The notes beneath the pieces are model-generated. The model was not told where the DNA came from and ran no database searches. It was given only the letters and a program-made list of their open reading frames with translations. Positions 9,377 to 22,295 of a DNA stretch of 43,850 nucleotides are shown piece by piece. The position numbers were made by a program, and so were the translations under genes. The DNA comes from an uncultured Oscillospiraceae bacterium (GTDB taxonomy: Bacteria > Bacillota > Clostridia > Oscillospirales > Oscillospiraceae): the NCBI GenBank assembly GCA_950075865.1, contig CATMVA010000019.1, forward strand, positions 1 through 43,850, written 5' to 3'. Positions within the stretch are counted from its first letter, which is position 1, and every line of letters begins with the position of its first letter.

Positions 9377-11221
9377 GTGAAAAAACGTACCGTATCCCTG
9401 ATCCTGACCGCTGTGATGGCGGTCATGCTGGCAGCGCCTGTCCGGGGGGCCGAGATCGGCTTCTCGGACGTTTCCGACCGGCACTACGCCAAGGATGCCA
9501 TCCAGTTCTGGGCCGAGCACGGGGTCCTGTCGGGGTACACCAACGGTACCTTCCTGCCCGGCGGTACCATGACCCGGGCCGAGTTGGCCGCCATGCTCCA
9601 GAAGATCGTGGGCTATCAGGGGCGGGCCGAGAATGTCTGGTCCGACCTGCCCCAGCGGGCCTGGTATACCGACAGTATCCTTGCCCTGGCCGCCCAGGGG
9701 ATCCTGACCGGGAACGCCGGGAAGATGGAGCCCCAGGCCGTGGTCTCCCGGCAGGAGGCCTTCACCCTGCTGGCCAGAGCCATCGGCCTGACCCCCAGCA
9801 GCAAGGCCCCCGGCTTTGCCGATGACGCCGCTATCCCGGCCGAGGCTATGGGTTATCTGGCCGCCATGCGGGAGGCCGGCTACATCCGAGAGTACAACGG
9901 CGCCAACACTATCCGTCCCACCGCCCCCATCACCCGGGCCGAGGTGGTCTCGGTCCTGAGCCGGATGATTCCGGGCTATGTGAACGTCAACGGGACCTAC
10001 TCGGCCGACTGCGCCGGCAGTCTGCTCATCAACGCCGGGGACGTGACCCTGAAGGACATGACCGTGGAGGGCGACCTGATCGTGGCCGACGGCGTGGGCA
10101 ACGGGGATGTATATCTCCAAAACGTGACCGTCAAGGGGGACGTGATCCTCCGGGGCTGCGGCGAAAATTCCTTCCATATCCAGAGCGGCTCCCAGCTGGG
10201 CCGCATCGTGGTGAAAAAGACCGCCCAGGGCAAGATCCGGGTGGTAGATGAGACCGGTACAGCCGGCTCCGCCGTGGTCATCGAGGACGGCTGGGATGAC
10301 GTGATCCTGACCGGCGCCTTCGCCAGCGTTACGGTAGAAAACGACGTGACCGTGCAGCTGGTGAACGCCCAGGTGGCCGAGCTGACTGTCAACGCTGCCG
10401 GCGCCGGGATCAGCAATGCCGGCACGGTGGAGTTGCTGACCGTGAATGCCGACAACGTGACCGTGACCGGGGAGAAACCGGCCGAGGTGGAGGAGGCTGC
10501 CGGCGTTAAGGGCACCGTGCTCCCCGGCGCGGCCGCCGTGCCCAGCCCCACCCCCGCCCATCCCTTCGGCTCGGGTACGGGGACCACTACGACCACGCCC
10601 AGAAATACCCCCAGCCCCGATCCCGCACCTGTATCCCCCACCCCAAAGCCTTCCAGCACGCCAGCCCCTTCCAATACCCCGGCGCCCACTCCCACTCCGG
10701 CACTCACATCTACCCCCGCCCCGGACTGCAAGCACCACCTGATGGAGCTGGTGAAGGAGGAGATCAACAGCGACTGCTCCGGCCGGACCATCACCGAGGT
10801 GTGTAAGGTCTGCGGCAAGATGAGTCAAATGGTCGAGTCTATCCGTGACGGCGGCTGGCATGACCGTGTGGAGAACAACGACCGGGTGGAGCCCACCTGT
10901 ACCGCCTCCGGCCTGGAGGCCACATGGTACTGTGCACGTTGCGGCAGGAAGTATCCCGAGCAGTTCGGCGGCCCCAGCGGCCCGGCCGTCCGCGGCGTCA
11001 TCCCCGCTCTGGGCCATGACTATGTAAACGGTATCTGCACCCGCTGCGGCGCGAGCGAGGATGAGGATCTGGCCGACGAGAACGCCCCCATGGCAGAGGC
11101 CCCCTTCGACCAGGCCCAGGGGACCGACATCCGTCCCGCCATCCTCCTGGCCATGGGAACGGTGGTCCTGGCCCTCTATGGGATCGATCTGGTCAGCCGG
11201 AAGCGGGAACGGACGAAATAA
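9377..11221 (+). CDS. SLH-domain surface protein with C-terminal membrane anchor
   Basis: A 614-residue exported protein. GTG at 9377 is preferred because AAGGAG (9362-9367) is 9 bases upstream; the GTG at 9359 lacks a site. Order: signal peptide ending near GAEIGF; three SLH domains (about 20-75, 80-135, 140-195), which bind secondary cell-wall polymer; a region of short beta-strand repeats (about 200-380: TLKDMTVEGDLIV, VYLQNVTVKGDVIL) resembling a parallel beta-helix; a Pro/Thr/Ser linker (about 385-450); a Cys-rich part with CKVCGK, CARCGR and CTRCGA, possibly zinc-binding; and a final hydrophobic helix followed by SRKRERTK. SLH domains at one end and a membrane helix at the other imply it spans wall to membrane. 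No sortase LPxTG motif is seen. Ligand unknown. Confidence 0.88.
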   Translation: MKKRTVSLILTAVMAVMLAAPVRGAEIGFSDVSDRHYAKDAIQFWAEHGVLSGYTNGTFLPGGTMTRAELAAMLQKIVGYQGRAENVWSDLPQRAWYTDSILALAAQGILTGNAGKMEPQAVVSRQEAFTLLARAIGLTPSSKAPGFADDAAIPAEAMGYLAAMREAGYIREYNGANTIRPTAPITRAEVVSVLSRMIPGYVNVNGTYSADCAGSLLINAGDVTLKDMTVEGDLIVADGVGNGDVYLQNVTVKGDVILRGCGENSFHIQSGSQLGRIVVKKTAQGKIRVVDETGTAGSAVVIEDGWDDVILTGAFASVTVENDVTVQLVNAQVAELTVNAAGAGISNAGTVELLTVNADNVTVTGEKPAEVEEAAGVKGTVLPGAAAVPSPTPAHPFGSGTGTTTTTPRNTPSPDPAPVSPTPKPSSTPAPSNTPAPTPTPALTSTPAPDCKHHLMELVKEEINSDCSGRTITEVCKVCGKMSQMVESIRDGGWHDRVENNDRVEPTCTASGLEATWYCARCGRKYPEQFGGPSGPAVRGVIPALGHDYVNGICTRCGASEDEDLADENAPMAEAPFDQAQGTDIRPAILLAMGTVVLALYGIDLVSRKRERTK

Positions 11222-11238
11222 GACAACAGTAAACGGAT

Positions 11239-11278
11239 AAAAAGCGCCCCGCCTGTGAAAACAGGCGGGGCGTTTTTT
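11239..11278. terminator. Bidirectional intrinsic terminator
   Basis: A perfect 12-base stem (11245-11256 with 11261-11272) with a GAAA loop has TTTTTT on the plus side (11273-11278) and a run of A (11239-11243) giving a T tract on the minus side. It ends both the SLH gene and the EF-G-like gene. Confidence 0.88.
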
Positions 11279-11304
11279 CATGTCAGCGAGTTGGGGAGAA
11301 AGGC

Positions 11305-13386
11305 TCAGCCTTCCTCGGCCTCCATGGCCTTGGCTTCGGCGATGGCCTTCTCCTGGGCAGCAGGAGGGCAGTCCTCGTAGCGGATAAAGTGGAAGGTGAA
11401 GGAGCCCCGTGACTGGGTCATGCTCCGCAGGTCGATGGCGTAGGAGCTCATCTCGGCCATGGGGACCTCGGCCTCCAGGATCTGGTTGCCCTCGCCGTCG
11501 GGGTTCATGCCCATGACTCGGCCCCGGCGCTTGGTGATGTCGCCCATCACGTCGCCCATGTAGCTGTCGGGGATGGTGACTTTCAGCTCGCCCACCGGCT
11601 CCAGCAGGATGGGGTTGGCCTCGGGCATGGCGGCCTTGTAGGCCAGCTGGGCGGCCGTCTTGAACGCGATTTCCGAAGAGTCAACGGGGTGATAGCTTCC
11701 GTCATACAGGGTGGCTTTCAGGTTGACCAGGGGATACCCGGCCAGGGGCCCGTGGACCACAGCCTCCCGCAGGCCCTTTTCCACGGCGGGGAAGAAGTTC
11801 TTGGGCACGCTTCCGCCGAAGACTTCCTCGGCGAAGACCAGCTCCTCCTGATCGTAGTTGGGCTCGAAGCGGATCCACACATCGCCGAACTGGCCGGAGC
11901 CGCCGGTCTGCTTCTTGTGCCGGCCCTGCTTCTCCACCTTTTTCCGGATCTTCTCCCGGTAGGGGACCCGGGCGGGGGAGGTGACGGCCTCCACGTTGAA
12001 GCGGCTCTTCAGCTTGCTCACCAGCACGTCCACCTGGATATCGCCGGCGGCGTAGACCACCAGCTGATGGGTCTCGGCGTTGTTGACCCAGTAGAAGGAG
12101 GGATCTTCCTCGTTCATCCGGTTAAGGCCCTGGGCCACCTTGTCCTCCTGGCCCCGGGACTTGGGGGCGATGGCCACACTGTAGCAGGGCTCGGCGAAGG
12201 GGATAGGCTCCACCTTCTCCAGCTTCCGGGGGTCGCACAGGGTGTCCCCGGTCTTGAGCTTATCCATCTTGCCGATGGCGCCGATGTCGCCGCAGCCCAG
12301 CTCCTTGACCTCAGTATACTTCTTGCCCTTCATGGCATAGAGCCGGCCCAGCTTCTCGGTCTCCCCGGTACGGGCGTTGACCACGGCCATATCCGGCTTG
12401 ATGGAGCCCGACAGGACCTTTACATAGCTGTACTTGCCGTACTGGTCGGAGACCGTCTTGAACACGAAGGCGGCGGGCAGGGCGCCGGGGGCCGAGACGA
12501 AGGGGGAGGAGACCCCCTCCTCATTTTCGGCGTTCAGGGGCTGGCCGTCCAGTGGATTGGGCAGAAGCTCCACGATGGTGTCCAGCAGCATCCGGGTGCC
12601 CAGGCTCTGGGCGGCCGAGCCGCACACCACAGGGAAGAGGGACAGGTCCTTCACGCCCTGACGCAGACCGGTGATCATCTCGGCGTAGGTGAAGTCCTCG
12701 CCGGAGAAATACTTGTCCATGAAGGCCTCACTTGTCTCGGCCACCGACTCCTTCAGGGCGTCGTAAAGCTCGTCCAGAACGGCCTTCTTGTCCTCGGGCA
12801 CATCGATCTCCACCCGCTCGCCCTTGGGGCCCATCTCAAAGGCCCGCTTCTGGAGCACGTCGATGATACCGATGACCTTCTTGCTCTCGTCCCAGATGGG
12901 GGCCACCACGGGGGCGATGTTCTTGCCGAACCGCTCCCGCAGGGTGGCGAAGGCGGCGTTGTAGTCCGAGTTCTCCTCGTCGGTCTTGGAGATGTACAAC
13001 AGCCGAGGCAGCTTGCGCCCCTCGCAGTACTTCCAGGCTTTCTCGGCGCCCACGCTCATGCCCGATTTGGCCGAGCAGACGATGATGGCGGCGTCGGCGG
13101 CCTGAAGGGCCTCGGCCACCTCGCCGGCGAAGTCAAAGGCACCCGGTGTGTCCAGCACGTTGATCTTACAGCCGTTATACTCCACCGGAGCCACCGCCAG
13201 GGAGATGGAGGTCTGACGCTTCTGCTCCTCGGGATCGTAGTCACAGACGGTGTTTCCGTCGGGTACCTTGCCCAGCCGGTCGGTTCCGCCGGTGAGATAA
13301 AGCATACTTTCCGCCAGGGAGGTCTTGCCGTTGCCGGCGTGTCCCAGCAGGCAGAGGTTGCGGATGTTTTGTGCGGAATAGCTCAT
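11305..13386 (-). CDS. Elongation factor G-like GTPase (divergent paralogue)
   Basis: A 693-residue protein with the five-domain EF-G architecture: G domain, domain II, then domains III-V (GSGQFGDVWIRFEP, and MGDVMGDITKRRGRVMGM near the end). It differs from true EF-G at key sites. The P-loop is GHAGNGKTS (residues 15-23), the switch II motif DTPGH is DTPGA (79-83), so the catalytic His is Ala, and the G4 motif is SKTD (133-136) instead of NKMD. These changes are typical of the EF-G-like group of Clostridia that exists beside a normal fusA. Function is unknown; a role on the ribosome is likely but full translocase activity is doubtful. It is a single-gene unit with its own promoter and terminator. 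Confidence 0.88.
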   Translation of the reverse strand: MSYSAQNIRNLCLLGHAGNGKTSLAESMLYLTGGTDRLGKVPDGNTVCDYDPEEQKRQTSISLAVAPVEYNGCKINVLDTPGAFDFAGEVAEALQAADAAIIVCSAKSGMSVGAEKAWKYCEGRKLPRLLYISKTDEENSDYNAAFATLRERFGKNIAPVVAPIWDESKKVIGIIDVLQKRAFEMGPKGERVEIDVPEDKKAVLDELYDALKESVAETSEAFMDKYFSGEDFTYAEMITGLRQGVKDLSLFPVVCGSAAQSLGTRMLLDTIVELLPNPLDGQPLNAENEEGVSSPFVSAPGALPAAFVFKTVSDQYGKYSYVKVLSGSIKPDMAVVNARTGETEKLGRLYAMKGKKYTEVKELGCGDIGAIGKMDKLKTGDTLCDPRKLEKVEPIPFAEPCYSVAIAPKSRGQEDKVAQGLNRMNEEDPSFYWVNNAETHQLVVYAAGDIQVDVLVSKLKSRFNVEAVTSPARVPYREKIRKKVEKQGRHKKQTGGSGQFGDVWIRFEPNYDQEELVFAEEVFGGSVPKNFFPAVEKGLREAVVHGPLAGYPLVNLKATLYDGSYHPVDSSEIAFKTAAQLAYKAAMPEANPILLEPVGELKVTIPDSYMGDVMGDITKRRGRVMGMNPDGEGNQILEAEVPMAEMSSYAIDLRSMTQSRGSFTFHFIRYEDCPPAAQEKAIAEAKAMEAEEG

Positions 13387-13449
13387 AAAGGTCCTCTCCT
13401 TACGTATTGGGGGGTACAGTGGTACTTGCTGAAAGCACTGTTCTTGTCA

Positions 13450-13478
13450 ATTATAATACAAATCACCCTGCTTGACAA
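13450..13478 (-). promoter_or_regulatory. Sigma-A promoter of the EF-G-like gene
   Basis: On the minus strand TTGTCA (13478-13473), a 17-base spacer and a perfect TATAAT (13455-13450) lie about 65 bases upstream of the ATG. Confidence 0.75.
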
Positions 13479-13509
13479 CCATAATTTTGGGAAATTGCAT
13501 AAAATTCTA

Positions 13510-13545
13510 AAAAGGGAGGGCCCGCCTTGATGGGCGGACCCTCCC
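13510..13545 (-). terminator. Terminator of the seven-gene FkbH-MBOAT operon
   Basis: A 13-base GC-rich stem with one mismatch (13514-13526 with 13532-13545) and a short loop is followed in the minus direction by TTTTT. It lies directly after the MBOAT stop at 13550. Confidence 0.85.
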
Positions 13546-13549
13546 GGGC

Positions 13550-15064
13550 TCAGAATTTCTGATAAATAAATGCCTGGGCGTCGTAGCCGGGGCCGTACCA
13601 GCCCAGCACCAGCACACCCAGCACCAGCAGGACCCAGAGGGCCCACCGCAGGGGCAGAGGCCGCCTGGCGATGGCCTCCCGGAGGTCTCCCTTCTGTTGG
13701 AGCATCCCCACGATGACCAGGAGGACGAGCCCTCCGGCGGTGACCAGCAGGTCCCACCTGTCTAACCCCAGGGTGGTGGGGGAGGGGAGCCCCCCCGACA
13801 GGTCGAAGAGCCTCAGCCACATCCCCACGCCGGCGCGGAGGCTGGGGGAGCGTCCGATGGAGACGCTGAGGGTGAACAAAACGGTGGTCCGCACACGGGA
13901 GAACCAGATCCAGGCTTTGGCCTGGGGGTTGATGCGGAGCAGGGCCTTCAGCCGGTCAAAGATGGGCTGGAGGAGCATCCCCCCCACGATCATGAGGAAG
14001 AAAAAGAGGCCCGAGGAGAAGATGTACTTCCAGCTCCCCCCGTGCCAAAGGCCGATGGAGAACCAGGTCACCAGCATGGCGGCGTAGAGCAGTAGGTCCT
14101 TACCCCGCTGCTTGCCCAGCTTTTCCCGGGCGGCCTTGCCGAACCGGGTGGTGAGGGCGCGCTGGAGGGGGTACATGACGTAGTCCTTCAGCCAGGCTCC
14201 CAATGTGATATGCCACCGCCGCCAGAATTCCGACAGGCTCACCGAGTAGAAGGGGGTGCGGAAGTTCTCAGGCAGATGGATCCCGAAAAGCTGCCCGGCC
14301 CCCAGCACGATGTCCATACAGCCGCTGAAATCGGTGTAGAGCTGGAGCACATAGCCAAAGGCCCCGATGAGCACATAGACCCCGGTCTGGGGTACTGTTT
14401 GCCCACCGTAGACCGTGTCTACCACCGCCCCCAGCCGGGCCGAGAGCACCAGCTTCTTAAAGAGTCCCCACACCAGCCGCTGGAGGCCGAAGGTCACCTC
14501 CTCGTAGGAGAACCGGTGGCCCTCATAGAGAGTCCCGCCGATTTCCCCATACCGGGTGAAAGGTCCCGAGACCATCTGGGGGAAGAACCCGGCGAAGAGG
14601 ATCAGCTTCAGGGGATTTCTCTGGGGCTCGGTCTTCTCCCATTGAATGTCGCAGAGGTAGCTGACCAGCATCAGGGTATAGTAGGACACCCCCAGCGGCG
14701 CGGCCAGCTCCAGAGCAGGGAAGCGGAAGGTGCTCCCTGTGAGCCCTAGCAGGGCGTTGGCGTTGTTTGTAAAAAAGGAGCTGTCCTTCAGCACGAAAAG
14801 GACGGCCAGCTGAGCCAGAATAAAGAGAGCGCACACCCGGGAACGGACTTTGCCCGGGGCCATCTGACCGAGGAGCACCCCGCCCCACCAGGCCAGCAGG
14901 GTCTGGCCCAGAAAGAGAAGATAAAGCTGCCAGGAGGCGCCCAGGATACAGAACACCCCGCTGGCCCCCAGCAGCACCCCCCACCGGAAGCGCCTGGGGC
15001 AGAGGTAGTAAAGGAGGGCGGTCGCCCCTAAAAAGACAAAAAAAGAAAAGGATACGATGGACAA
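13550..15064 (-). CDS. MBOAT-family membrane O-acyltransferase
   Basis: A 504-residue multi-pass protein of the DltB/AlgI type, which moves acyl groups from the cytoplasmic side onto an acceptor outside. The conserved block WRRWHITLGAWLKDY carries His285 and GLWHGGSWKYIF carries the catalytic His341. FSGCMDIVLGAGQLFGI is also family-typical. About ten membrane segments are visible. It is the last gene of the operon, 13 bases after the SDR gene. No dltA, dltC or dltD partner is present, so this is not the D-alanine system. The acyl carrier protein at 16224 is the likely donor (inference). The acceptor could be a cell-wall polymer or glycan; the sequence does not say which. No SGNH-type periplasmic partner is encoded in the operon. 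Confidence 0.9.
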   Translation of the reverse strand: MSIVSFSFFVFLGATALLYYLCPRRFRWGVLLGASGVFCILGASWQLYLLFLGQTLLAWWGGVLLGQMAPGKVRSRVCALFILAQLAVLFVLKDSSFFTNNANALLGLTGSTFRFPALELAAPLGVSYYTLMLVSYLCDIQWEKTEPQRNPLKLILFAGFFPQMVSGPFTRYGEIGGTLYEGHRFSYEEVTFGLQRLVWGLFKKLVLSARLGAVVDTVYGGQTVPQTGVYVLIGAFGYVLQLYTDFSGCMDIVLGAGQLFGIHLPENFRTPFYSVSLSEFWRRWHITLGAWLKDYVMYPLQRALTTRFGKAAREKLGKQRGKDLLLYAAMLVTWFSIGLWHGGSWKYIFSSGLFFFLMIVGGMLLQPIFDRLKALLRINPQAKAWIWFSRVRTTVLFTLSVSIGRSPSLRAGVGMWLRLFDLSGGLPSPTTLGLDRWDLLVTAGGLVLLVIVGMLQQKGDLREAIARRPLPLRWALWVLLVLGVLVLGWYGPGYDAQAFIYQKF

Positions 15065-15077
15065 GTGCTCCGCCTCC

Positions 15078-15809
15078 TTACAGCCCGCCGGTGACGGCCA
15101 GATTTTGCCCGGTGACGGCGGCCGCTGCCGGGGAGAGGAGATACGCGAAAGCGGGGACCACGTCCTCCACCGTCAGCAGCCGGTGAAGGGGGGAGGCCAT
15201 CACGTTGGCCTCCTTCACGTGTTCCGAGCCCCGGAGGAACTTGGTGTCGATCATGGAGGGGGAGACGGCGTTCGCCGTCACCCCCTTGCCGGCGTACTCG
15301 GCCGACAGGGCCTTGACCAACCCCAGCAGGGCGTGCTTGGCGCAGGTGTAGGGAGCGGCGTAGGCCTTGTGGGGCTCCCACTGGACGTGGGAGGAGAGCA
15401 TGACGGCTACCCGCCCGCCGCCCGCTTTGGCCATCAGGGGCACAAAGGCCTGACAGCACAGCACCGCCGGCCGGAAGGCCACATCCAGCTCATGCTGGAA
15501 ATCGGCCCAGGAGGACTTGGAAAACCGCAGGTTCAGACTGCCCACAGGGTCGCTGGACAGGTGGACAAAGTGGCAGGGGGCCAGCCCCTGGTCCAGAACG
15601 GCCTGAACAAAGCCCTCGGTCTCCTCCAGGCTTCCAAAGTCGGCCCTCAGGGGTACCAGCCTGTCCCCCAGAGAGGCGCGGAGACCCTCCACCACTCCGG
15701 TGGAGGCGTGGTAGTGGCAGACCACCTTATCGTAGTTGTTTCCCACACGGCGGATGAGTTCAGCGCCCACGTCTGAGCTTCCCCCGGTGACCAGTAAGAC
15801 CTTATCCAT
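15078..15809 (-). CDS. Short-chain dehydrogenase/reductase (FabG-like)
   Basis: A 243-residue Rossmann-fold oxidoreductase. The cofactor loop is VTGGSSDVG (TGxxxxxG type). The catalytic residues are visible as Ser in VMLSSHVQW and Tyr/Lys in YTCAKHALLG. Length and order match 3-oxoacyl-ACP reductases, which use NAD(P)H to reduce a keto group on ACP-bound acyl chains. Its start overlaps the MaoC stop by 8 bases. Beside an ACP and a MaoC dehydratase, an acyl-ACP substrate is more likely than a free sugar, but a sugar ketoreductase cannot be excluded. Confidence 0.9.
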   Translation of the reverse strand: MDKVLLVTGGSSDVGAELIRRVGNNYDKVVCHYHASTGVVEGLRASLGDRLVPLRADFGSLEETEGFVQAVLDQGLAPCHFVHLSSDPVGSLNLRFSKSSWADFQHELDVAFRPAVLCCQAFVPLMAKAGGGRVAVMLSSHVQWEPHKAYAAPYTCAKHALLGLVKALSAEYAGKGVTANAVSPSMIDTKFLRGSEHVKEANVMASPLHRLLTVEDVVPAFAYLLSPAAAAVTGQNLAVTGGL

Positions 15810-16227
15810 CCAGTACCCCCACCTTCATGGTCCCCCGCAGATATTTGTTCCCGTCGGCCCCGGTGACACTCACCTTCACAGTGAGCCGGCCAAACCGCTC
15901 CTCCCGCTCGGTGACCGTGCCAGAGACCACCAGGTCCAGCCCCTCCCCGGGGATGAGAGGCCTGACAAATTTGACCTCCACCTCCTGGAGCAGGCTCCGC
16001 TCCCCCGGCAGGTACATACCGGCCAGGGTGGAGAGAAAGGAGGCGGTGAGCATCCCATAGGCCACCTCGCCGGCGTAGCCCTTGCTCCGGGCGTAGTCCC
16101 CGTCAGTGTGGAGGGGATTCTCGTCCCCGGTGATCCGGGCAAAGAGGGCCATCTCCTCCGGCCCGATGCGGACCGGGAAGGACTCGGTGTGGCCCACCGG
16201 GATCTCTTCAAAGGTGTAGTGGTTCAC
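15802..16227 (-). CDS. MaoC-like hotdog dehydratase/hydratase
   Basis: A 141-residue single-hotdog protein. The family motif is seen as FARITGDENPLHTDGDYA, with the Asp and His used in (R)-specific hydration of enoyl thioesters or dehydration of 3-hydroxyacyl thioesters. The GTG at 16227 overlaps the ACP stop in a GTGA arrangement, so the two are translationally coupled. In this operon it probably acts on an ACP-bound intermediate made by the SDR. Some family members act on CoA esters instead. Confidence 0.85.
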   Translation of the reverse strand: MNHYTFEEIPVGHTESFPVRIGPEEMALFARITGDENPLHTDGDYARSKGYAGEVAYGMLTASFLSTLAGMYLPGERSLLQEVEVKFVRPLIPGEGLDLVVSGTVTEREERFGRLTVKVSVTGADGNKYLRGTMKVGVLDG

Positions 16228-16469
16228 TGGGTGGCCCTCGCCAGGATCAGATCCACCGACTCGCCCACGTCCTTCATGCCGGTGATCTCCCCCATGGTAA
16301 ACTTCATACCGAACTCCTCCTCCAGAGCCACGATGAGGTTGATGTGCTCCAGGCTGTCCCAATCCTCAATGTCAGCGGCGGTGGTGGCGTCGTTCACCGT
16401 GATGGTCTCGTCGTCAAAAATGTCCCGAAAGACCTTGTTGACCCGCTCAAAGGCTTCTTCTCTTGTCAT
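16224..16469 (-). CDS. Acyl carrier protein (dedicated)
   Basis: An 81-residue acidic four-helix protein. DWDSLEHINLIVALEEEFG holds the DSL motif with Ser39, which receives the phosphopantetheine arm. It is not the housekeeping fatty-acid ACP by context: it is buried in the FkbH-transketolase-MBOAT operon. FkbH-like enzymes load a glyceryl unit from 1,3-bisphosphoglycerate onto such ACPs (known for polyketide and tetronate pathways), so it may carry glyceryl or a product of it here (inference). AGGAGG lies just before the ATG at 16469. Confidence 0.92.
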   Translation of the reverse strand: MTREEAFERVNKVFRDIFDDETITVNDATTAADIEDWDSLEHINLIVALEEEFGMKFTMGEITGMKDVGESVDLILARATQ

Positions 16470-16519
16470 GGTAGGTTCCTCCTTGTAAATGATGATAAAA
16501 GTGGCCCAGTCAAAAAACC

Positions 16520-17485
16520 TCAGAACTGAGAGGTCGGGTCCTCAAGGTCCAGATTTGGGAGCTTGATCCCCGCAAAAAGCTTTGTGGTCAAACACCGGCT
16601 GTCCAGCCCGTTGAGCTGCCGGACCTCCTTGGTGGTGCCGTAGCCCTCGGCGAAAGTGTTTCGGAGTCCGAAGCATTTCAGGGGGATCCGGACGCCGGAG
16701 GCCACCAGGACCTCAGCCACCGCTGAACCCAGCCCTCCGGTCACGCTGTGCTCCTCCACCGTGAAGGCTCTTATTTTGCCGTCCAGGGCCGAGAGGATCT
16801 CGCCGCCGGGAAAGGGCTTCAGGGTGGGCACGTCCCAGAGGGCTACGCTGAGCCCCTGGCCGCGGATGGTCTGGACCGCCTCGTAGACCTCCTCCAGGAT
16901 GGTCCCGGTGGAGAAGACCACATAATCCTCCCCAGGCAGGATCAACTCGGGCACCTCGGGGCGGAACACGTAATTTTCCGGATAGAACTCGCTCTCCCCG
17001 GCCATCCCCATGCGGATGTACACCGGCCCTGGGATCCGGACGGCCAGCGAAACCATGGCGGCAAGCTGCCGTGGGGTGGAGGCCGAGAGCAGAGTCAGGT
17101 TGGGCAGGGCCCGGAGGGCGGCGATGTCCTCGGTGGTGTGGTGGGAGGGTCCCAGGGTGCTCCACTGGCCCATCCCCGTCCCCATGCCGATGCCCACCAG
17201 CTTCACATTCCGGCGGGGCAGACACACATCGTCCCGGATGAACTCATAGGCCCGGTAGGCCAGAAAGGCCCCGGTGGTGTAGACGAAGGGGATCTTCCCC
17301 ATGGCCGCCATGCCCGAGGCGGCCGAGACCTGAAGGGCCTCGGCGATGCCGAAGTTATAGCACCGCTCCGGGAAGTCCCGTGCCAGAAGCCTGTCGTAGT
17401 CGGTGCCGCTGTCCGACAGCAGGGAGCAGACCCGCTCGTCCCGGGCCATCAGGTCGTAGAGGGCGGTTATATAGGCCGTTTGCAT
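16520..17485 (-). CDS. Transketolase-like protein, C-terminal half (pyrimidine-binding subunit)
   Basis: A 321-residue subunit matching the pyrimidine-binding and C-terminal domains of transketolase. YNFGIAEALQVSAASGMA carries the conserved Glu that activates thiamine diphosphate, and the C-terminal domain has FTVEEHSVTGGLGSAVAEVL. It works with the N-terminal subunit encoded just upstream, whose end overlaps it by 19 bases. The ATG at 17485 is used. Split transketolases of this kind occur in specialised pathways as well as in pentose metabolism. Here an ACP follows 50 bases downstream, suggesting a C2 (glycolaldehyde) transfer within the ACP pathway (inference). Confidence 0.88.
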   Translation of the reverse strand: MQTAYITALYDLMARDERVCSLLSDSGTDYDRLLARDFPERCYNFGIAEALQVSAASGMAAMGKIPFVYTTGAFLAYRAYEFIRDDVCLPRRNVKLVGIGMGTGMGQWSTLGPSHHTTEDIAALRALPNLTLLSASTPRQLAAMVSLAVRIPGPVYIRMGMAGESEFYPENYVFRPEVPELILPGEDYVVFSTGTILEEVYEAVQTIRGQGLSVALWDVPTLKPFPGGEILSALDGKIRAFTVEEHSVTGGLGSAVAEVLVASGVRIPLKCFGLRNTFAEGYGTTKEVRQLNGLDSRCLTTKLFAGIKLPNLDLEDPTSQF

Positions 17486-18285
17486 ACTTCCAGCTCCTCC
17501 TCGGTGATGTTCAGCTCCTCGCAAAAAACCTTCAGTTCCCGGCGGTTGGGCATCCGGAAATGCCAGCCCGGGGCGTCCTCCATCAGGGATACCCCCTTGC
17601 CCTTCACCGTGCGGGCAATGAGACACCGGGGCTTTCCGATTTCCCAGTTTCCGGTGAGGGCGGCCTTCAAGGCCCCCTCGTCGTGGCCGTCACAGTCCTT
17701 CACGTCCCAGCCGAAAGCGGCGAACCGCCCCCCCAGGTCGTCGGGGCCGGTGATATGCTCGATAAAATCCATCTTCTGGATGCGGTTGCGGTCAATGATG
17801 ACGGTCAGGTTGTCCAGGCCGTAGGCACACGCCCCCTGAGCCCCCTCCCAGACCGAGCCCTCCTGGCACTCCCCGTCCCCTAAAATGACATAGACCCGGT
17901 TGGGTTTTTTATCCTGCCGGAGGGCCAGCGCCATGCCCACCGCCACCCCGAGCCCGTGGCCCAGGCTCCCGGTGGAGGTCTCCACCCAGGGACACTCCCC
18001 CACATGGGGCTCCCCGCCCAGCAGGGACCCGGGCAGGCAGAAGGAATCCAGCTCCTCCCGGCTGAGGCACCCGGCCTCGTGCAGGACCACATAAAAGGCC
18101 AAAGCCCCGTGGCCCTTGGAGAGGATCAGAATGTCCCGCCCCTCCCAGCGGGGGTCGTTGGGGGCGTAGGCCAGTACCCCGCCCAGCCACAGGGTCCGCA
18201 GGATCTCCACCAGGGAGAAGGAGCTGGCCAGATGGGCCGCCCCGGCCTTGTAGGCCCGGAGAAAGATCTCTTTCCGCTCGTTCAC
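17467..18285 (-). CDS. Transketolase-like protein, N-terminal half (thiamine diphosphate-binding subunit)
   Basis: A 272-residue subunit equal to the diphosphate-binding domain of transketolase. SKGHGALAFY, STGSLGHGLGVAVGMALA and the metal/diphosphate motif GDGECQEGSVWEGA...N are all present. GTG at 18285 forms a GTGA overlap with the FkbH-like stop, so translation is coupled. Together with the next gene it makes one complete transketolase-type active site. Pentose-phosphate use cannot be excluded, but its position between FkbH-like and ACP genes argues for a dedicated role. Confidence 0.88.
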   Translation of the reverse strand: MNERKEIFLRAYKAGAAHLASSFSLVEILRTLWLGGVLAYAPNDPRWEGRDILILSKGHGALAFYVVLHEAGCLSREELDSFCLPGSLLGGEPHVGECPWVETSTGSLGHGLGVAVGMALALRQDKKPNRVYVILGDGECQEGSVWEGAQGACAYGLDNLTVIIDRNRIQKMDFIEHITGPDDLGGRFAAFGWDVKDCDGHDEGALKAALTGNWEIGKPRCLIARTVKGKGVSLMEDAPGWHFRMPNRRELKVFCEELNITEEELEVCKRPI

Positions 18286-20063
18286 ACGCTCACCTCGATA
18301 TAGGCGTTTTGGTTTGTGTAGCCGGAGATGTCCAGCTCGTAGGTCTTGTTCCCGTTCCCGTCGGTCTCTAAAAGGGTGAAACCCATGGCCTCGTAAAACT
18401 CCCGCACCATGGCGTTCTTGGCGGTGGGGTAGTAATGGCCCCGGAGCCGCACAAGCTCCCGCTCCCGGCATTGCCGGACCAGCTCGTCCAGCATGGCCTT
18501 CTCCATGTCCCGCTTCAGCACCCGGCAGGACATGAGCCACAGAATAATGTCGCAGGTATCCCCCTTCGCCTTCCCGGCGGTGAGGGCTACCACCCCGTTG
18601 GTGCCGAACCTGTCGTCCAGCTTGCCCGCCAGGGTGATGCAGTTCGGATCAGCGGCCATGGCCCCGATCTCCTCCGGAGTACACCGGAGGGTGGTCAGGT
18701 TGAACTGGTTGCTCTTGTTGGTGAGCTGGGCGATCCTCTGGAGGTAGGGCTCCTCAAAAGGCCGGATGGAGGCCTTCATCTCCAGCGAGCGCAGATACTC
18801 CCCATAGTCGGTAAAGGTGGCCTGGAGCCGGCTCCGGGCCGCATTGTCCCTGTACATCTCCCCCCGCTTCAGGTCGTCCCCCGTGAGGGCGGTGACCTCA
18901 AAGAAGCCGGAGCGGTCCAGGATCCCGAGGAACCCCTCGGGCTTGTCCCCCACCTCGGGGACACAGGCTCCCGGCACCTGCTGGCGGACGATCTCCCGCT
19001 CGGCGGGGTTGTCGTCCACAAAGACGAAGGCCTCGGGGAGAAGGGAGAGCTCGTGGGCCATGTCCACCAGGTTCCGGGACTTGGGGTCCCAGTTGGCCTT
19101 GATGAGGATAAAGTCCTCCGGCCTCAGCACCTCCTCCGGGTGGTTCAGCCCGGCCAGGGCGTTCTCCGGGTCGTTTTTGCTGATGATGTTGAGGATGACC
19201 CCCAGCGCCTTGTGGGCCTTCAGATAATCCTGAAATTCGCTGTACACCTGGCCCAGGGAGGTCTCCTGTCCCACCTGGATGCCCTCGACCCCGTCGTCCC
19301 CGATGACCCCGCCCCACAGGGTGTTGTCCAGGTCCAGGGCAAAGGCCTTCTTGTTCTTCCCGAAGAGGGACTTGACCATATTGGCCACGCTGAAAGCCAG
19401 CCGGGGGATGGCGGGCACGGCCAGGGCGTACTTGTACATGTGCCAGTAGAAGGGGTCGCTCCAGGCCTCCAGGCCGTAGTCGGCGGCCAGGTAGTTCAGA
19501 TCATGGAGGTAGAATCCCTCGTGGCCCTGGGCGTACTCGGCAAAGCGCAGGTTGAGCCGGGTGACGAAGTTCACCCGTCCGTGGAGGTCGGCAGCGTCCC
19601 GGTTGCCCATGAGCCGCCAGAAAGGATACTCAAAGTTGTTCTGAATGACCGGACAGGCGTAGACCTCTCCCAGCCGCTCCCACATCCCCTCAAAGCGGGC
19701 GTACTGGGCACGCAAAAGCTCCTCTACCTGCTCCGGGCTGTCGGTGAGGGCGGGGAAGGCAGTCAGGTTCCGCAGGGAGGTGTGGACATAGATCACGTCG
19801 GGCCTGAACTCCTCCAGCGCCGGGTTGGGGAACATGGCGTCCTGCCAGTACTGGGCGTATTCGCTCTCATAGAAGGCGGGGCGGATGCCCTGGTTCAGCA
19901 GGAAAAGCTCCAGCATGTCCCTGATATCGTGGGTGGTGGAGCCGCCCAGAATGGCGATACGCTTGTCCAGCCAGTCCCTCTGCTCCTCCAAAAGCTGCCG
20001 CTTCAAAGCCTTCCGCTTCTTCAGCAGCAATGCCCCGTCAAAGGGATATTCCAGCTCCCGCAT
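18282..20063 (-). CDS. FkbH-like HAD-IIIC protein with C-terminal GNAT-like domain
   Basis: A 593-residue protein. ATG at 20063 has GGAGGTG 6 bases upstream; the ATG 14 codons earlier has no site. Domains: N-terminal region (about 1-230) with GGST at 40-43 and DVIYVHTSLRN near 90, resembling the SGNH-like fold seen in long FkbH proteins (tentative); HAD-IIIC phosphatase domain from about 240 with the DLDNTLWGG motif (Asp244, Asp246, Thr248), IISKNDP and FVDDNPAERE; C-terminal acetyltransferase-like domain (about 440-593). Family members dephosphorylate 1,3-bisphosphoglycerate and load glyceryl onto an ACP. It is first in a seven-gene operon with its own promoter. The actual acyl unit here is unknown. 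Confidence 0.88.
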   Translation of the reverse strand: MRELEYPFDGALLLKKRKALKRQLLEEQRDWLDKRIAILGGSTTHDIRDMLELFLLNQGIRPAFYESEYAQYWQDAMFPNPALEEFRPDVIYVHTSLRNLTAFPALTDSPEQVEELLRAQYARFEGMWERLGEVYACPVIQNNFEYPFWRLMGNRDAADLHGRVNFVTRLNLRFAEYAQGHEGFYLHDLNYLAADYGLEAWSDPFYWHMYKYALAVPAIPRLAFSVANMVKSLFGKNKKAFALDLDNTLWGGVIGDDGVEGIQVGQETSLGQVYSEFQDYLKAHKALGVILNIISKNDPENALAGLNHPEEVLRPEDFILIKANWDPKSRNLVDMAHELSLLPEAFVFVDDNPAEREIVRQQVPGACVPEVGDKPEGFLGILDRSGFFEVTALTGDDLKRGEMYRDNAARSRLQATFTDYGEYLRSLEMKASIRPFEEPYLQRIAQLTNKSNQFNLTTLRCTPEEIGAMAADPNCITLAGKLDDRFGTNGVVALTAGKAKGDTCDIILWLMSCRVLKRDMEKAMLDELVRQCRERELVRLRGHYYPTAKNAMVREFYEAMGFTLLETDGNGNKTYELDISGYTNQNAYIEVSV

Positions 20064-20136: not shown

Positions 20137-20159
20137 AAAAAGCGGCGGCCTGAGCCGCC
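20137..20159 (-). terminator. Second terminator behind XRE module B
   Basis: A 6-base GC stem (20144-20149 with 20154-20159) is followed in the minus direction by GC and TTTTT. It backs up the stronger hairpin at 20169-20192 and insulates the FkbH operon. Confidence 0.7.
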
Positions 20160-20168
20160 TATAACAAA

Positions 20169-20192
20169 CCCCGGCGGAAAATTCCGCCGGGG
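20169..20192 (-). terminator. Terminator of the XRE regulator gene (module B)
   Basis: A perfect 11-base inverted repeat (20169-20179 with 20182-20192) lies 7 bases after the XRE stop. In the minus direction it is followed by TTTGTT. Confidence 0.75.
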
Positions 20193-20198
20193 TCTCCT

Positions 20199-20423
20199 TT
20201 ATGCTATGGGGTGCTTGTTGTCTGTGCGGCCCGTCAGATAATCCAGCGACACCTTGTACAGATCCGCGATCCGAACCAGGATATCCAGCCTGGGCTCCCG
20301 GGTCATCAGCTCATAATTCTGATAGGCCTTCTCTGTAATGTCACAATAAATCGCGACCTGACCCTGGGTCAGGCCCATCTCTTTTCTGCATGATTTTAAC
20401 CGCTTGGCCAAAATATCCTTCAT
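20199..20423 (-). CDS. Small XRE-family HTH transcriptional regulator (module B)
   Basis: A 74-residue protein consisting of a single XRE helix-turn-helix domain. LTQGQVAIYCDITEKAYQNY is the helix-turn-helix and VSLDYLTGRTD the typical end. The ATG at 20423 is preferred over a GTG at 20432 because AGGTG lies 8-12 bases upstream of the ATG. That ribosome binding site is itself inside the left arm of a long inverted repeat, so operator binding and translation start overlap. It is divergent from an 80-residue ORF. Size, sequence and layout match the regulator at 3792-4001. Confidence 0.9.
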   Translation of the reverse strand: MKDILAKRLKSCRKEMGLTQGQVAIYCDITEKAYQNYELMTREPRLDILVRIADLYKVSLDYLTGRTDNKHPIA

Positions 20424-20428
20424 TCGCA

Positions 20429-20500
20429 ACACCTACGATCGTTCTTGACAAAGACAGTATACGGGATTACAATAACCGATATACCAACGATTGTAGGTGT
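20429..20500. promoter_or_regulatory. Inverted repeat bracketing a sigma-A promoter (module B)
   Basis: Two 15-base arms (20429-20443 and 20486-20500) are inverted copies with 14 of 15 matches. Each contains a smaller palindrome or near-palindrome (ACGATCGT in the left arm). Between them lies a plus-strand promoter: TTGACA (20445-20450), a 17-base spacer and TACAAT (20468-20473). The left arm abuts the -35 box and the right arm covers about +6 to +20. The XRE protein of module B is the likely binder (inference). Confidence 0.7.
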
Positions 20501-20900: not shown

Positions 20901-22262
20901 TCACTCCACCGGGTGCTGTCTGCCTACGCCGTCGATGGTGTAGTCCACGCAGTATTCCCCGGGGAGGATGAGCTCCGAGATGGGGACGAAGGTGTAGCCC
21001 TCGTCCATAAGGGTCTCCAAAATGGTGGGGAGAGCCTCGGGGGTGTGCTCCGCGGAATTGTGGCAGAGGATGATGGAGCCGGCCTTGGCCTTGGAGGTCA
21101 CCCGCTCCACGATCTCGTCGGCCGAGATGCCGCTCCAGTCCAGGGAGTCCACATCCCACTGGATGGGCTCCATGCCTAGGGAGCGGATGGCCGAGAGGGC
21201 ATTGTTGTCATAGTCCCCGTAGGGGAGGCGGATGAGGGTGGGGCGGACGCCGGTGATGGCCTCCACCTTGTCGTTGCAGGCCTCCACGTCGGCGATGACC
21301 TCCTCGCGGGAGCGGCCGGCAAGGTGGTCGTGGTGGCTGGAGTGGTTCATGACCTCGTGTCCGGCCTCAGCCACCGCCTTGACCGACTCGGGGTAGGTGT
21401 CCACCCAGTCCCCGATCAGGAAAAAAGTGGCCCTGACGTCATACTCGTCCAGTATTTCCAAAAGCTTGGCGGTGTTCTCGCCGCCCCAAGCGGCGTCAAA
21501 AGAGATGGCCAGCCGCTTTTCCTCCTGCTGGACGCAGTAGATGGGCAGCATACGGGACGGAGTGGCCACCGGGGACGGGGTCTGGGACTCCGCAGCCTGA
21601 GATACAACTTGGGATACGGCGGGGGACAGGGCCGGGGCCTCCGCTGGGTCGATGTCGAGGGCGTCGTTGGGCGCGGACACCGGAGAGACGGTAAGGAGCC
21701 CCGCGGAATTGTATGGGACGTCCTCCTCCGGATCCCCGGTGGTGGGGACACTGCTGTCAGACGGAGGGTCTCCTTCGGCCTTGGGGATGGAAGCGGTCCG
21801 CACGGCGGACTTGAACAGAACGGCGCTGGGCTGGGGCGTGGGGGCGTCCATGCCGTATGACGCGGCCTCCCCGTTCTCCGGGGCGGCGTCCTGAAAGAGG
21901 GCCGCCTCTGGCACGCCTTCCCCCGTCCTGTCGGCGTTGCGGCCCATGCCCCAGGCCCCCAGCAGGACCAGGGCCAGAGCGGCGGCCGAAGCCGCCCACC
22001 GCTTCCATTGGAAGGTTTTCCGGACGGGCAGGGGGACAATGTTGTCCGGGGGCAGGGCGGCCATGATCCGGTCGGCAAGCCCGGCGGGGGGCTCGGCTCC
22101 GGGTAGGGAGGAGAGGGCGTCGTGGATATCCTTCAGGTCTCGGGCCATGGCCCGGCAGGCGGGACATTGGGCCAGGTGGACGTCCAGGACAAGGGTATCC
22201 TCGGGAGAGAGAGCCCCGTCCAGTGAGGCGCTGATCAGCTCAATATAGTTGTCACAGAACAT
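20901..22262 (-). CDS. Anti-sigma factor fused to an extracellular polysaccharide deacetylase
   Basis: A 453-residue single-membrane-pass protein. The ATG at 22262 follows AAGGAGG. Residues 1-60 form a zinc-binding anti-sigma (zf-HC2/ZAS) domain with Cys3 and His29-x3-Cys33-x2-Cys36. A membrane helix spans about 90-107. A long Ser/Pro/Ala-rich linker (about 108-240) leads to a NodB-type deacetylase domain (about 250-440) with SFDAAWG (256-260 region), HSSHH (307-311), RLPYG (345-349) and LCHN (His401). The second Asp of the usual TFDDG is Ala, as in the FDAAW subgroup. The cognate ECF sigma gene lies 33 bases upstream in the same operon. The enzyme would be held on the outer membrane face while the ZAS domain binds sigma inside. 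Fusion seen directly; signalling role inferred. Confidence 0.9.
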   Translation of the reverse strand: MFCDNYIELISASLDGALSPEDTLVLDVHLAQCPACRAMARDLKDIHDALSSLPGAEPPAGLADRIMAALPPDNIVPLPVRKTFQWKRWAASAAALALVLLGAWGMGRNADRTGEGVPEAALFQDAAPENGEAASYGMDAPTPQPSAVLFKSAVRTASIPKAEGDPPSDSSVPTTGDPEEDVPYNSAGLLTVSPVSAPNDALDIDPAEAPALSPAVSQVVSQAAESQTPSPVATPSRMLPIYCVQQEEKRLAISFDAAWGGENTAKLLEILDEYDVRATFFLIGDWVDTYPESVKAVAEAGHEVMNHSSHHDHLAGRSREEVIADVEACNDKVEAITGVRPTLIRLPYGDYDNNALSAIRSLGMEPIQWDVDSLDWSGISADEIVERVTSKAKAGSIILCHNSAEHTPEALPTILETLMDEGYTFVPISELILPGEYCVDYTIDGVGRQHPVE

Positions 22263-22295
22263 GGGGTCCCCTCCTTTCTTGTCTGTGTTCATCTC

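Follow-up and report, generated by a model that had tools for sequence, protein, structure and literature searches.

The window, a stretch of 43,850 nucleotides of contig CATMVA010000019.1 (assembly GCA_950075865.1) from an uncultured Oscillospiraceae bacterium, carries seven minus-strand genes, which its list of open reading frames (ORFs) places from 20063 down to 13550 (Table 1). They encode an FkbH-like protein, the N-terminal and C-terminal halves of a split transketolase (TK-N and TK-C), a stand-alone acyl carrier protein (ACP), a MaoC-type hydratase, a short-chain dehydrogenase/reductase (SDR) and a DltB-like membrane-bound O-acyltransferase (MBOAT). The seven genes are one operon-like unit: FkbH and TK-N overlap by 4 bases, TK-N and TK-C by 19, ACP and MaoC by 4, and MaoC and SDR by 8, and all seven reading frames are intact, with catalytic residues retained. 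Pfam and NCBIfam agree on the families of FkbH, both transketolase halves, MaoC, SDR and MBOAT; the ACP is a weak match (18.2 bits in Pfam against a gathering score of 20.8, and at best 35 bits in NCBIfam, under the cut-offs), with its DSL serine present. Homologues of the FkbH protein begin similarly, with M-x-E-L-x-Y/F-P-F.

An initial annotation of this DNA had described a one-strand set with its 19-, 8- and 4-base overlaps and a terminator, both of which are borne out, by the ORF coordinates and by a strong terminator with a 13-bp stem followed by five T residues (13545-13514). It had also proposed one promoter, but a promoter scan showed nothing sigma-70-like immediately before FkbH; the nearest such site on the minus strand (20344-20316) lies inside the gene of a small XRE regulator and scores 9 of 12, and hairpins at 20144-20193 lie between that gene and FkbH. 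The XRE regulator is tied to the operon by position only.

Table 1. Genes and other features of the operon region, in window coordinates
Feature	Position	Strand	Remarks
FkbH-like glyceryl loader (predicted), 593 aa	18282..20063	-	start ATG; FkbH_N + HAD-IIIC phosphatase (DLDNTLW) + FkbH C-terminal part
Transketolase N-terminal half (TK-N), ThDP-binding	17467..18285	-	start GTG; PF00456 123.6 bits
Transketolase C-terminal half (TK-C), PYR + C domains	16520..17485	-	PF02779/PF02780; altered sugar-phosphate pocket
Stand-alone ACP, 81 aa, WDSLEH	16224..16469	-	ACP models 33-35 bits, under cut-offs
MaoC / R-specific hydratase-dehydratase	15802..16227	-	start GTG; PF01575 52.9 bits
SDR reductase, YxxxK	15078..15809	-	PF13561 114.5 bits
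DltB-like MBOAT, His341, C-terminal FIYQKF (Tyr501)	13550..15064	-	start TTG; PF03062
Rho-independent-type terminator 3' of MBOAT	13514..13545	-	13-bp stem then TTTTT
Small XRE/RstR-like regulator upstream of FkbH, within extra stretch	20199..20432	-	HTH_3 46 bits

Matches to FkbH (E<=0.001) were found in 84 of the 394 genomes of the order, the window's own genome counted, and in none of 15 genomes of the same genus (67-99% complete). Among 44 FkbH loci taken from the match lists, mostly the best ones, an ACP lies beside FkbH in 40, an MBOAT within the fetched stretch in 28, and MaoC and SDR in three (L075-L077); neither TK-N nor TK-C occurs in any of these FkbH-anchored loci, and the linked ones were found by a scan with a TK-N profile. 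FkbH and ACP make up the core of the system, to which a DltB-like MBOAT and an SGNH-family partner are often joined, and the FkbH-ACP-MBOAT combination is apparently widespread in this clostridial order. Operons of the form MBOAT-DHHW-FkbH-ACP, with one or two DHHW genes, recur in the order (L007, L008, L044, L047, L050, L053-L055 and others). Pfam confirms DHHW in five proteins from four such loci, and one L008 copy also has a YbbR domain. Such operons probably serve plain glyceryl surface acylation.

The TK-N profile (17 aligned rows) was run against the genome collection and the best 80 of at least 515 confirmed loci were taken, so that membership of the transketolase-type set depended first on TK-N similarity and then on a flanking FkbH gene; relatives' ORFs were called with a crude purpose-written script. 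FkbH accompanies both transketolase halves in 17 of the 80 loci (L080-L089, L092, L093, L095-L097, L110 and L120), which are labelled Oscillospiraceae, Lachnospiraceae, Clostridiaceae, Defluviitaleaceae, Eubacterium, Peptococcaceae, Desulfovibrio, Clostridiales or unclassified; binning errors may lie behind the metagenome-assembled genome labels Desulfovibrio (L097) and Peptococcaceae (L120). Of the 17, 15 have both ACP and MaoC, the two others (L088, L120) stopping at a contig edge, and 13 have an MBOAT, L080, L088 and L120 stopping at a contig edge and L081 having an AAC(3)-like enzyme instead. All seven genes occur in the window's order in L082 and in a different order in L093 and L096; gene order varies in the other loci, and FkbH lies about 4 kb away from the transketolase genes in L086 and L097. 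Conserved co-occurrence, which the initial annotation had suggested looking for, is therefore found, and its view that the genes form a unit is upheld by linkage in the relatives. The transketolase and FkbH genes stay together with the ACP and MBOAT genes, rather than being consistently apart from them as that annotation had named as evidence against its pathway. Its reading of the seven genes as a single pathway holds as to the conserved unit, but the core is FkbH and ACP, often with MBOAT, and transketolase, MaoC and reductase are an add-on cassette.

In a tree of 81 TK-N rows, rooted at midpoint only, the 18 FkbH-linked copies (the 17 and the window's) fall on one side of a single branch (SH-aLRT 94), and FkbH linkage requires one change against a mean of 16.6 in shuffled data, none of 500 shuffles being as low. 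The FkbH tree (61 rows) places 15 of the 18 transketolase-type FkbH proteins in one clade (97) and forces at least two changes; L095 and L097 fall in a distant lineage and L081 lies near L075-L078 on a long branch. A single transketolase group has therefore joined up with two or more FkbH lineages. Ten unlinked transketolase copies (L090, L091, L094, L098, L100, L104, L105, L109, L116, L117) lie in what look, from their neighbours, like glycan-type clusters, with radical-SAM and nucleotidyltransferase-like proteins named by eye; in L104, L109 and L117 (about 10000-16000) other genes lie between the related TK-N and TK-C, and radical-SAM-like proteins adjoin.

The site of the operon is conserved in the genus. 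All 11 same-genus relatives examined have EF-G, a zf-HC2 protein and a sigma factor around it, and 10 a Dus protein (the L183 stretch is short). Between EF-G and the zf-HC2 gene, any ORF called in 10 of the 11 is shorter than 100 aa, small ones of 58-89 aa being present in some relatives, while in the window genome the operon and the small XRE gene, which has no match in the corresponding stretch of the 11 relatives, occupy this interval. The eleventh relative (G002, L186) holds about 10 kb of other genes there, and this different insertion at the same site means that the interval may be an insertion hotspot. EF-G served as the synteny anchor, the PdaB-like protein being a poor one with only partial matches: at 20901-22292 on the minus strand of the window a zf-HC2 domain is fused to a PdaB-like polysaccharide deacetylase, which the genus counterparts at this locus match mainly N-terminally. 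The operon was apparently gained at a conserved site, and the gene unit is both conserved and mobile-looking. A chance grouping of the seven genes is ruled out by the linkage counts, the TK-N tree and the extra DNA at the conserved site.

The window FkbH scores 262.8 bits against TIGR01686, above the cut-off, and 37.1 bits against PF21211, and its only solved relative by sequence is BF1531 (3slr). The DxD(N/D)T motif is shared by the window protein and all 17 relatives, and the phosphopantetheine serine of the ACP, in DS(L/F), by the window and all 15 aligned relatives. According to the accessible portion of PMC7489565, the FkbH proteins of other pathways transfer a glyceryl unit of 1,3-bisphosphoglycerate to an ACP; by analogy with that proposed chemistry, the window's FkbH would use 1,3-bisphosphoglycerate to form glyceryl-S-ACP. 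The initial proposal that FkbH and ACP feed the MBOAT is supported. Also as first noted, Pfam and NCBIfam find no ketosynthase among the seven proteins, by which a tetronate or polyketide route is rejected; nor do they find there a FabH-like enzyme, an FkbI/K-like dehydrogenase or an O-methyltransferase.

The TK-N profile of the relatives matches the solved split transketolase structure 6yak at 256 bits, and TK-C matches 6yaj at 164 bits. The window TK-N has the ThDP motif (GDG..N) as GDGECQEG...DRN, a search pattern for this motif matched 15 of the 18 TK-N sequences (not L083-L085), and the catalytic glutamate of TK-C, in GI(A/S/G)E, is present in 17 of 17 relatives. The arginine of RxAYG is replaced in all 18 operon TK-C proteins (by Q in 10, N in seven and L in one); all eight unlinked copies have the arginine, as do the four of eight same-genus housekeeping-type copies that extend far enough to include this position. 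A second stretch, SHGG..GED, is present in all eight same-genus housekeeping-type copies and absent from the operon and unlinked copies. In E. coli transketolase the RxAYG arginine and the SHGG..GED residues bind sugar phosphate. The altered pocket is in keeping with an acceptor or donor that is not a sugar phosphate. A housekeeping transketolase as the operon's role is disfavoured, the window's own genome having another frame of TK-C length (C6:45346, 31% identity).

MaoC is closest among solved structures to the (R)-specific enoyl-CoA hydratase 1iq6, and all 15 aligned relatives keep the D and H of its D.NPLH signature. The reductase is of two unrelated types: an SDR in the window and in L081, L082, L093, L095 (distant, 22%) and L096, and an aldo-keto reductase (AKR) in eight loci (L084-L087, L089, L092, L097 and L110; by Pfam for L085 only). 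The two never occur in the same locus, and L080, L088 and L120, whose stretches end early, have neither; this mutual replacement points to keto-reduction in most loci. From their sequences and linkage, transketolase, MaoC and reductase look like an acyl-tailoring cassette added to the FkbH-ACP core. Together with FkbH and ACP, the cassette makes up a module that, from its settings in L081 and L120 (described below), looks like a portable acyl-ACP source usable by several transferases. The three FkbH-ACP-MaoC-SDR loci L075-L077 have no transketolase or MBOAT in the fetched stretch, and the protein after their SDR is at most GNAT-like (Pfam E 0.044, under the cut-off, in L077; no match at E 0.01 in L076). 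They are a possible lactyl-ACP system.

The model of the window MBOAT (pLDDT 83.8) has its best structural matches in DltB (6bug, 8jem). Its H341, Y501 and F504 are invariant in 13 of 13 aligned sequences, the window counted, and an FxYxxF hexapeptide, FIYQKF in the window, stands at the C-terminus of 40 of the 42 MBOAT ORFs that have a visible stop (from 61 loci, including the second, Dlt-like MBOAT of L085). Among the 809 called ORFs of at least 100 aa, 22 have this pattern, a figure that takes in the MBOATs kept by the gene caller. In the available text of PMC12148441, the PatA hexapeptide is auto-acetylated and carries the acyl group, PatB uses the acetyl-tyrosine peptide, and MBOAT/SGNH pathways other than Dlt have no carrier protein and use acyl-CoA. 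Systems of the window type combine a carrier protein with a hexapeptide fused to the MBOAT. Dlt-like sets of ACP, MBOAT with FxYxxF and SGNH, likewise combining a carrier with a fused shuttle, are also seen in L209-L211 and L213 (same genus) and at L085:14071-18666; an AMP-ligase, an adenylating loader, precedes the set in L209-L211 and L085, and in L213 the contig edge cuts into the ACP gene.

An SGNH-family gene is present in the cluster of 11 of the 12 relatives that have room after the MBOAT, ten being recognized by the SGNH profile A2 (that of L085 just before FkbH) and the eleventh, in L097, encoding an AlgX-like protein; in L110 the ORF that follows the MBOAT gave no Pfam match. The model of the L084 SGNH protein (pLDDT 83.3) matches SGNH hydrolases weakly in Foldseek (DltD 7dxm at rank 8, E 3.4e-3), its sole match at E <= 0.001 being a designed scaffold and natural SGNH proteins weaker, and in the SGNH alignment the Gly, Ser, His and Asn of the (G/A)xS and HxN blocks are invariant. 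The window genome (G000) has a single A2 match, in an intact frame at C11:79739-80761 with no MBOAT there; the gene (L194:9237-10262, minus strand) sits between MiaA-like and AnsA-like genes, named by eye. In all 12 relatives with a 45-55% match to this SGNH protein, the SGNH gene directly follows an MBOAT gene. The nine such loci that were read (L202-L208, L214, L215) have an MBOAT with FxYxxF followed by SGNH, with a MiaA-like gene in seven and an AnsA-like gene in three. With an MBOAT beside SGNH in 12 of 12, parsimony suggests that the window genome lost that MBOAT and gained the operon's. Its other MBOAT (C9) has its own DHHW protein. The resident C11 SGNH protein is likely to be the partner of the operon MBOAT, a partner swap being the simplest reading of this gene arrangement. 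The initial annotation had given the MBOAT the role of moving the product to the surface, which stands in that the MBOAT is probably ACP-fed, but not as a stand-alone exporter, since it belongs to an FxYxxF class working with an SGNH partner.

We consider it probable, with some reserve, that the operon loads glycerate on a dedicated ACP, tailors it and passes the product to a DltB-like MBOAT for a cell-surface polymer. By analogy, the system is most likely a Dlt/PatAB-like envelope acylation whose carrier is charged with glycerate by FkbH, because of the FkbH-ACP core, the FxYxxF end of nearly all the MBOATs and the acyl transport role of this peptide in PatA. After loading, MaoC may eliminate the 3-hydroxyl of glyceryl-ACP to give enol-pyruvyl- or pyruvyl-ACP; that it acts on glyceryl-ACP itself is suggested because MaoC and SDR also occur with FkbH-ACP where transketolase is absent. 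Transketolase might then add a C2 hydroxyacetyl unit to the 2-keto group, as acetohydroxyacid synthase does with pyruvate, and the SDR (AKR in relatives) might reduce the new ketone to leave a branched C5 polyhydroxyacyl group, these three steps being the weakest of the scheme. The MBOAT, through His341, would move the acyl group from ACP to its own Tyr501 on the outside, as work on PatA and DltX suggests, and the SGNH protein, here the C11 candidate, would pass it from Tyr501 to the polymer. By the same logic FkbH-ACP-MaoC-SDR sets would yield lactyl-ACP, and FkbH-ACP-MBOAT variants plain glyceryl. The loading module of bryostatin (FkbH-ACP-DH-KR) reportedly offers a glyceryl-to-lactyl parallel, for which no paper was found in the open-licence literature. 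The full combination, in which transketolase is recruited as a C-C ligase on an ACP-bound acyl group (glyceryl to pyruvyl to branched C5), the MBOAT delivers to the surface through acyl-tyrosine and an interchangeable cassette also serves nonulosonate acylation, is put forward tentatively, as less likely than not.

Several observations weigh against surface delivery of a tailored acyl group. Two of the 42 MBOATs lack FxYxxF (L071, a shortened ORF, and L097, which ends in LMYGNF), and the WHG tripeptide is missing in the MBOATs of L071 and L078. The window itself has no SGNH gene by profile A2, and the pairing of MBOAT and SGNH is circumstantial, since the resident SGNH gene is also present in relatives without the operon and the window operon comes without one. 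L081 is without an MBOAT, and surface transfer is therefore not the module's only fate. In L083 there is neither SDR nor AKR from FkbH to MBOAT (contig end), and the reductase may accordingly not be universal. Transketolase could instead make a free precursor and not act on an ACP-bound group, and the order FkbH-AKR-TK-TK-MaoC of most AKR-type operons also fits an oxidation before the transketolase step. Most of the loci, moreover, are metagenome-assembled.

That last gene order is the starting point of an alternative with the same loading and surface transfer, in which the reductase oxidises glyceryl-ACP to 2-hydroxy-3-oxopropionyl-ACP, extension by C2 through transketolase yields a linear C5 trihydroxy-4-oxoacyl group, and this group is then dehydrated by MaoC. 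An alpha-hydroxyaldehyde is the usual type of transketolase acceptor, and 2-hydroxy-3-oxopropionyl-ACP is a proposed intermediate of the FkbH methoxymalonyl route in the accessible portion of PMC7489565. The route leaves no sensible job for MaoC and SDR in L075-L077, which are without transketolase in the fetched stretch. AKRs, furthermore, mostly reduce in cells. We regard this route as unlikely, though it deserves serious attention.

If plain glyceryl were exported instead, transketolase, MaoC and SDR would merely be co-transcribed for another sugar or lipid step. Cassette-free FkbH-ACP is indeed common in the order, as the counts of 40 and 28 in 44 loci for ACP and MBOAT attest. The cassette stays with FkbH and ACP in 18 loci of varied gene order, mostly with one of the two unrelated reductases, and it joined more than one FkbH lineage, all of which makes mere co-transcription rather improbable.

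We give a similarly low rating to the proposal that the product is a small diffusible metabolite or an acylated nucleotide-sugar, the MBOAT acylating a lipid- or sugar-linked intermediate rather than the finished polymer. The contexts that favour it are nonulosonate-like: at L081:3464-15182 the genes FkbH-TK-TK-ACP-MaoC-SDR lie between NeuB, cytidylyltransferase and radical-SAM genes and an Antibiotic_NAT-DUF4910 fusion, the AAC(3)-like enzyme that stands in the MBOAT's stead, and in L120 the module lies by a cytidylyltransferase and a polysialyltransferase-like protein. The initial annotation had named acyl groups on nonulosonate-type glycans as a distant precedent, and the six-gene module of L081 does adjoin NeuB and cytidylyltransferase. 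Against the proposal, the window and 13 of the 17 relatives have an MBOAT, which ends in FxYxxF in 11 of the 12 relatives with a visible C-terminus (all save L097), and the SGNH-family gene in the cluster of 11 of 12 relatives likewise speaks for a surface polymer.

Loading of the ACP by the transketolase halves with a C2 glycolyl group from a ketose phosphate, followed by export of glycolyl or a glyceryl/glycolyl mixture, is improbable. In the available part of PMC6335953, QncN/QncL/QncM and SclQ1-4 are said to form glycolyl-ACP, with split ThDP-domain and PYR/C-domain proteins by an ACP, and the window has such proteins beside its ACP. The Qnc/Scl systems, as presented there, include a protein for lipoyl attachment and acyltransfer, of which Pfam finds no such domain in the seven proteins, and glycolyl loading of this type is disfavoured by the lack of a lipoyl component. 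It would also leave FkbH, MaoC and reductase without a role, and the sugar-phosphate pocket is altered, with Q, N or L for the RxAYG arginine in all 18 operon copies.

An ordinary D-alanylation (Dlt) operon or its decayed remnant, for which the DltB-like sequence and fold of the MBOAT would speak, is ruled out to all practical purposes, as the initial annotation had held: Pfam finds no AMP-binding domain in the seven proteins, FkbH standing in the place of the adenylating loader, the MBOAT scores 134.5 bits against TIGR04091 (DltB) where the cut-off is 375, and the seven frames are intact with their catalytic residues.

Envelope acylation by MBOAT and SGNH proteins shapes bacterial charge, autolysis and immune recognition, and the donors known to us are D-alanyl-DltC and acyl-CoA. 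If the proposed reading of glycerate loading and surface transfer is true, glycerate-derived acyl-ACP would be a third feed for envelope acylation after adenylation and acyl-CoA, and would link a new class of surface group to glycolysis, possibly with a new type of transketolase reaction. In the open-licence literature searched, no paper describing such a system was found; the operon very likely encodes MBOAT envelope acylation fed by a carrier protein, through a loading and tailoring route that would be new. One of the 17 loci, L092 of Lachnospiraceae strain X68, is recorded as a strain and not as a metagenome-assembled genome, so that the chemistry looks directly testable.

Several known systems come close to parts of the operon. 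The FkbH-ACP glycerate pathways (methoxymalonyl-ACP, tetronates) share with it an FkbH beside a stand-alone ACP, whereas the operon is without their ketosynthase, FabH-like tetronate enzyme, O-methyltransferase and acyl-CoA-dehydrogenase-like enzyme, and ends in an MBOAT. The suomilide and banyaside clusters of cyanobacteria also have an FkbH domain and an MBOAT in one cluster but, in the accessible text of PMC13122637 and PMC10143770, belong to a nonribosomal peptide synthetase pathway in which the peptide is initiated by FkbH and the proposed role of the MBOAT is acylation of the product's sugar. Like Qnc/Scl, the operon has a split transketolase-type ThDP enzyme beside an ACP; it is without their lipoyl/acyltransferase component and has FkbH, MaoC, reductase and MBOAT in addition. 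A two-gene transketolase is also known from Carboxydothermus hydrogenoformans (6yaj/6yak), and relative to the housekeeping-type copies of the same genus the operon group is changed in the RxAYG arginine and SHGG..GED. The O-acetylation systems PatA-PatB and AlgI-AlgJ-X share an MBOAT with a C-terminal FxYxxF, and the relatives have SGNH, DHHW or AlgX-like partners; those systems, in the available text of PMC12148441, are without a carrier and fed by acyl-CoA, whereas here ACP and loader are encoded beside the MBOAT. Dlt D-alanylation (DltA-DltC-DltB-DltX-DltD) is matched in the dedicated carrier, the DltB-fold MBOAT, the expected SGNH partner and the logic of an acyl-tyrosine shuttle; in the operon, FkbH replaces the adenylating DltA, a hydroxyacyl group would replace D-alanine, the SGNH gene is unlinked in the window genome, the hexapeptide is fused to the MBOAT where Dlt has a separate DltX, and there are extra tailoring enzymes.

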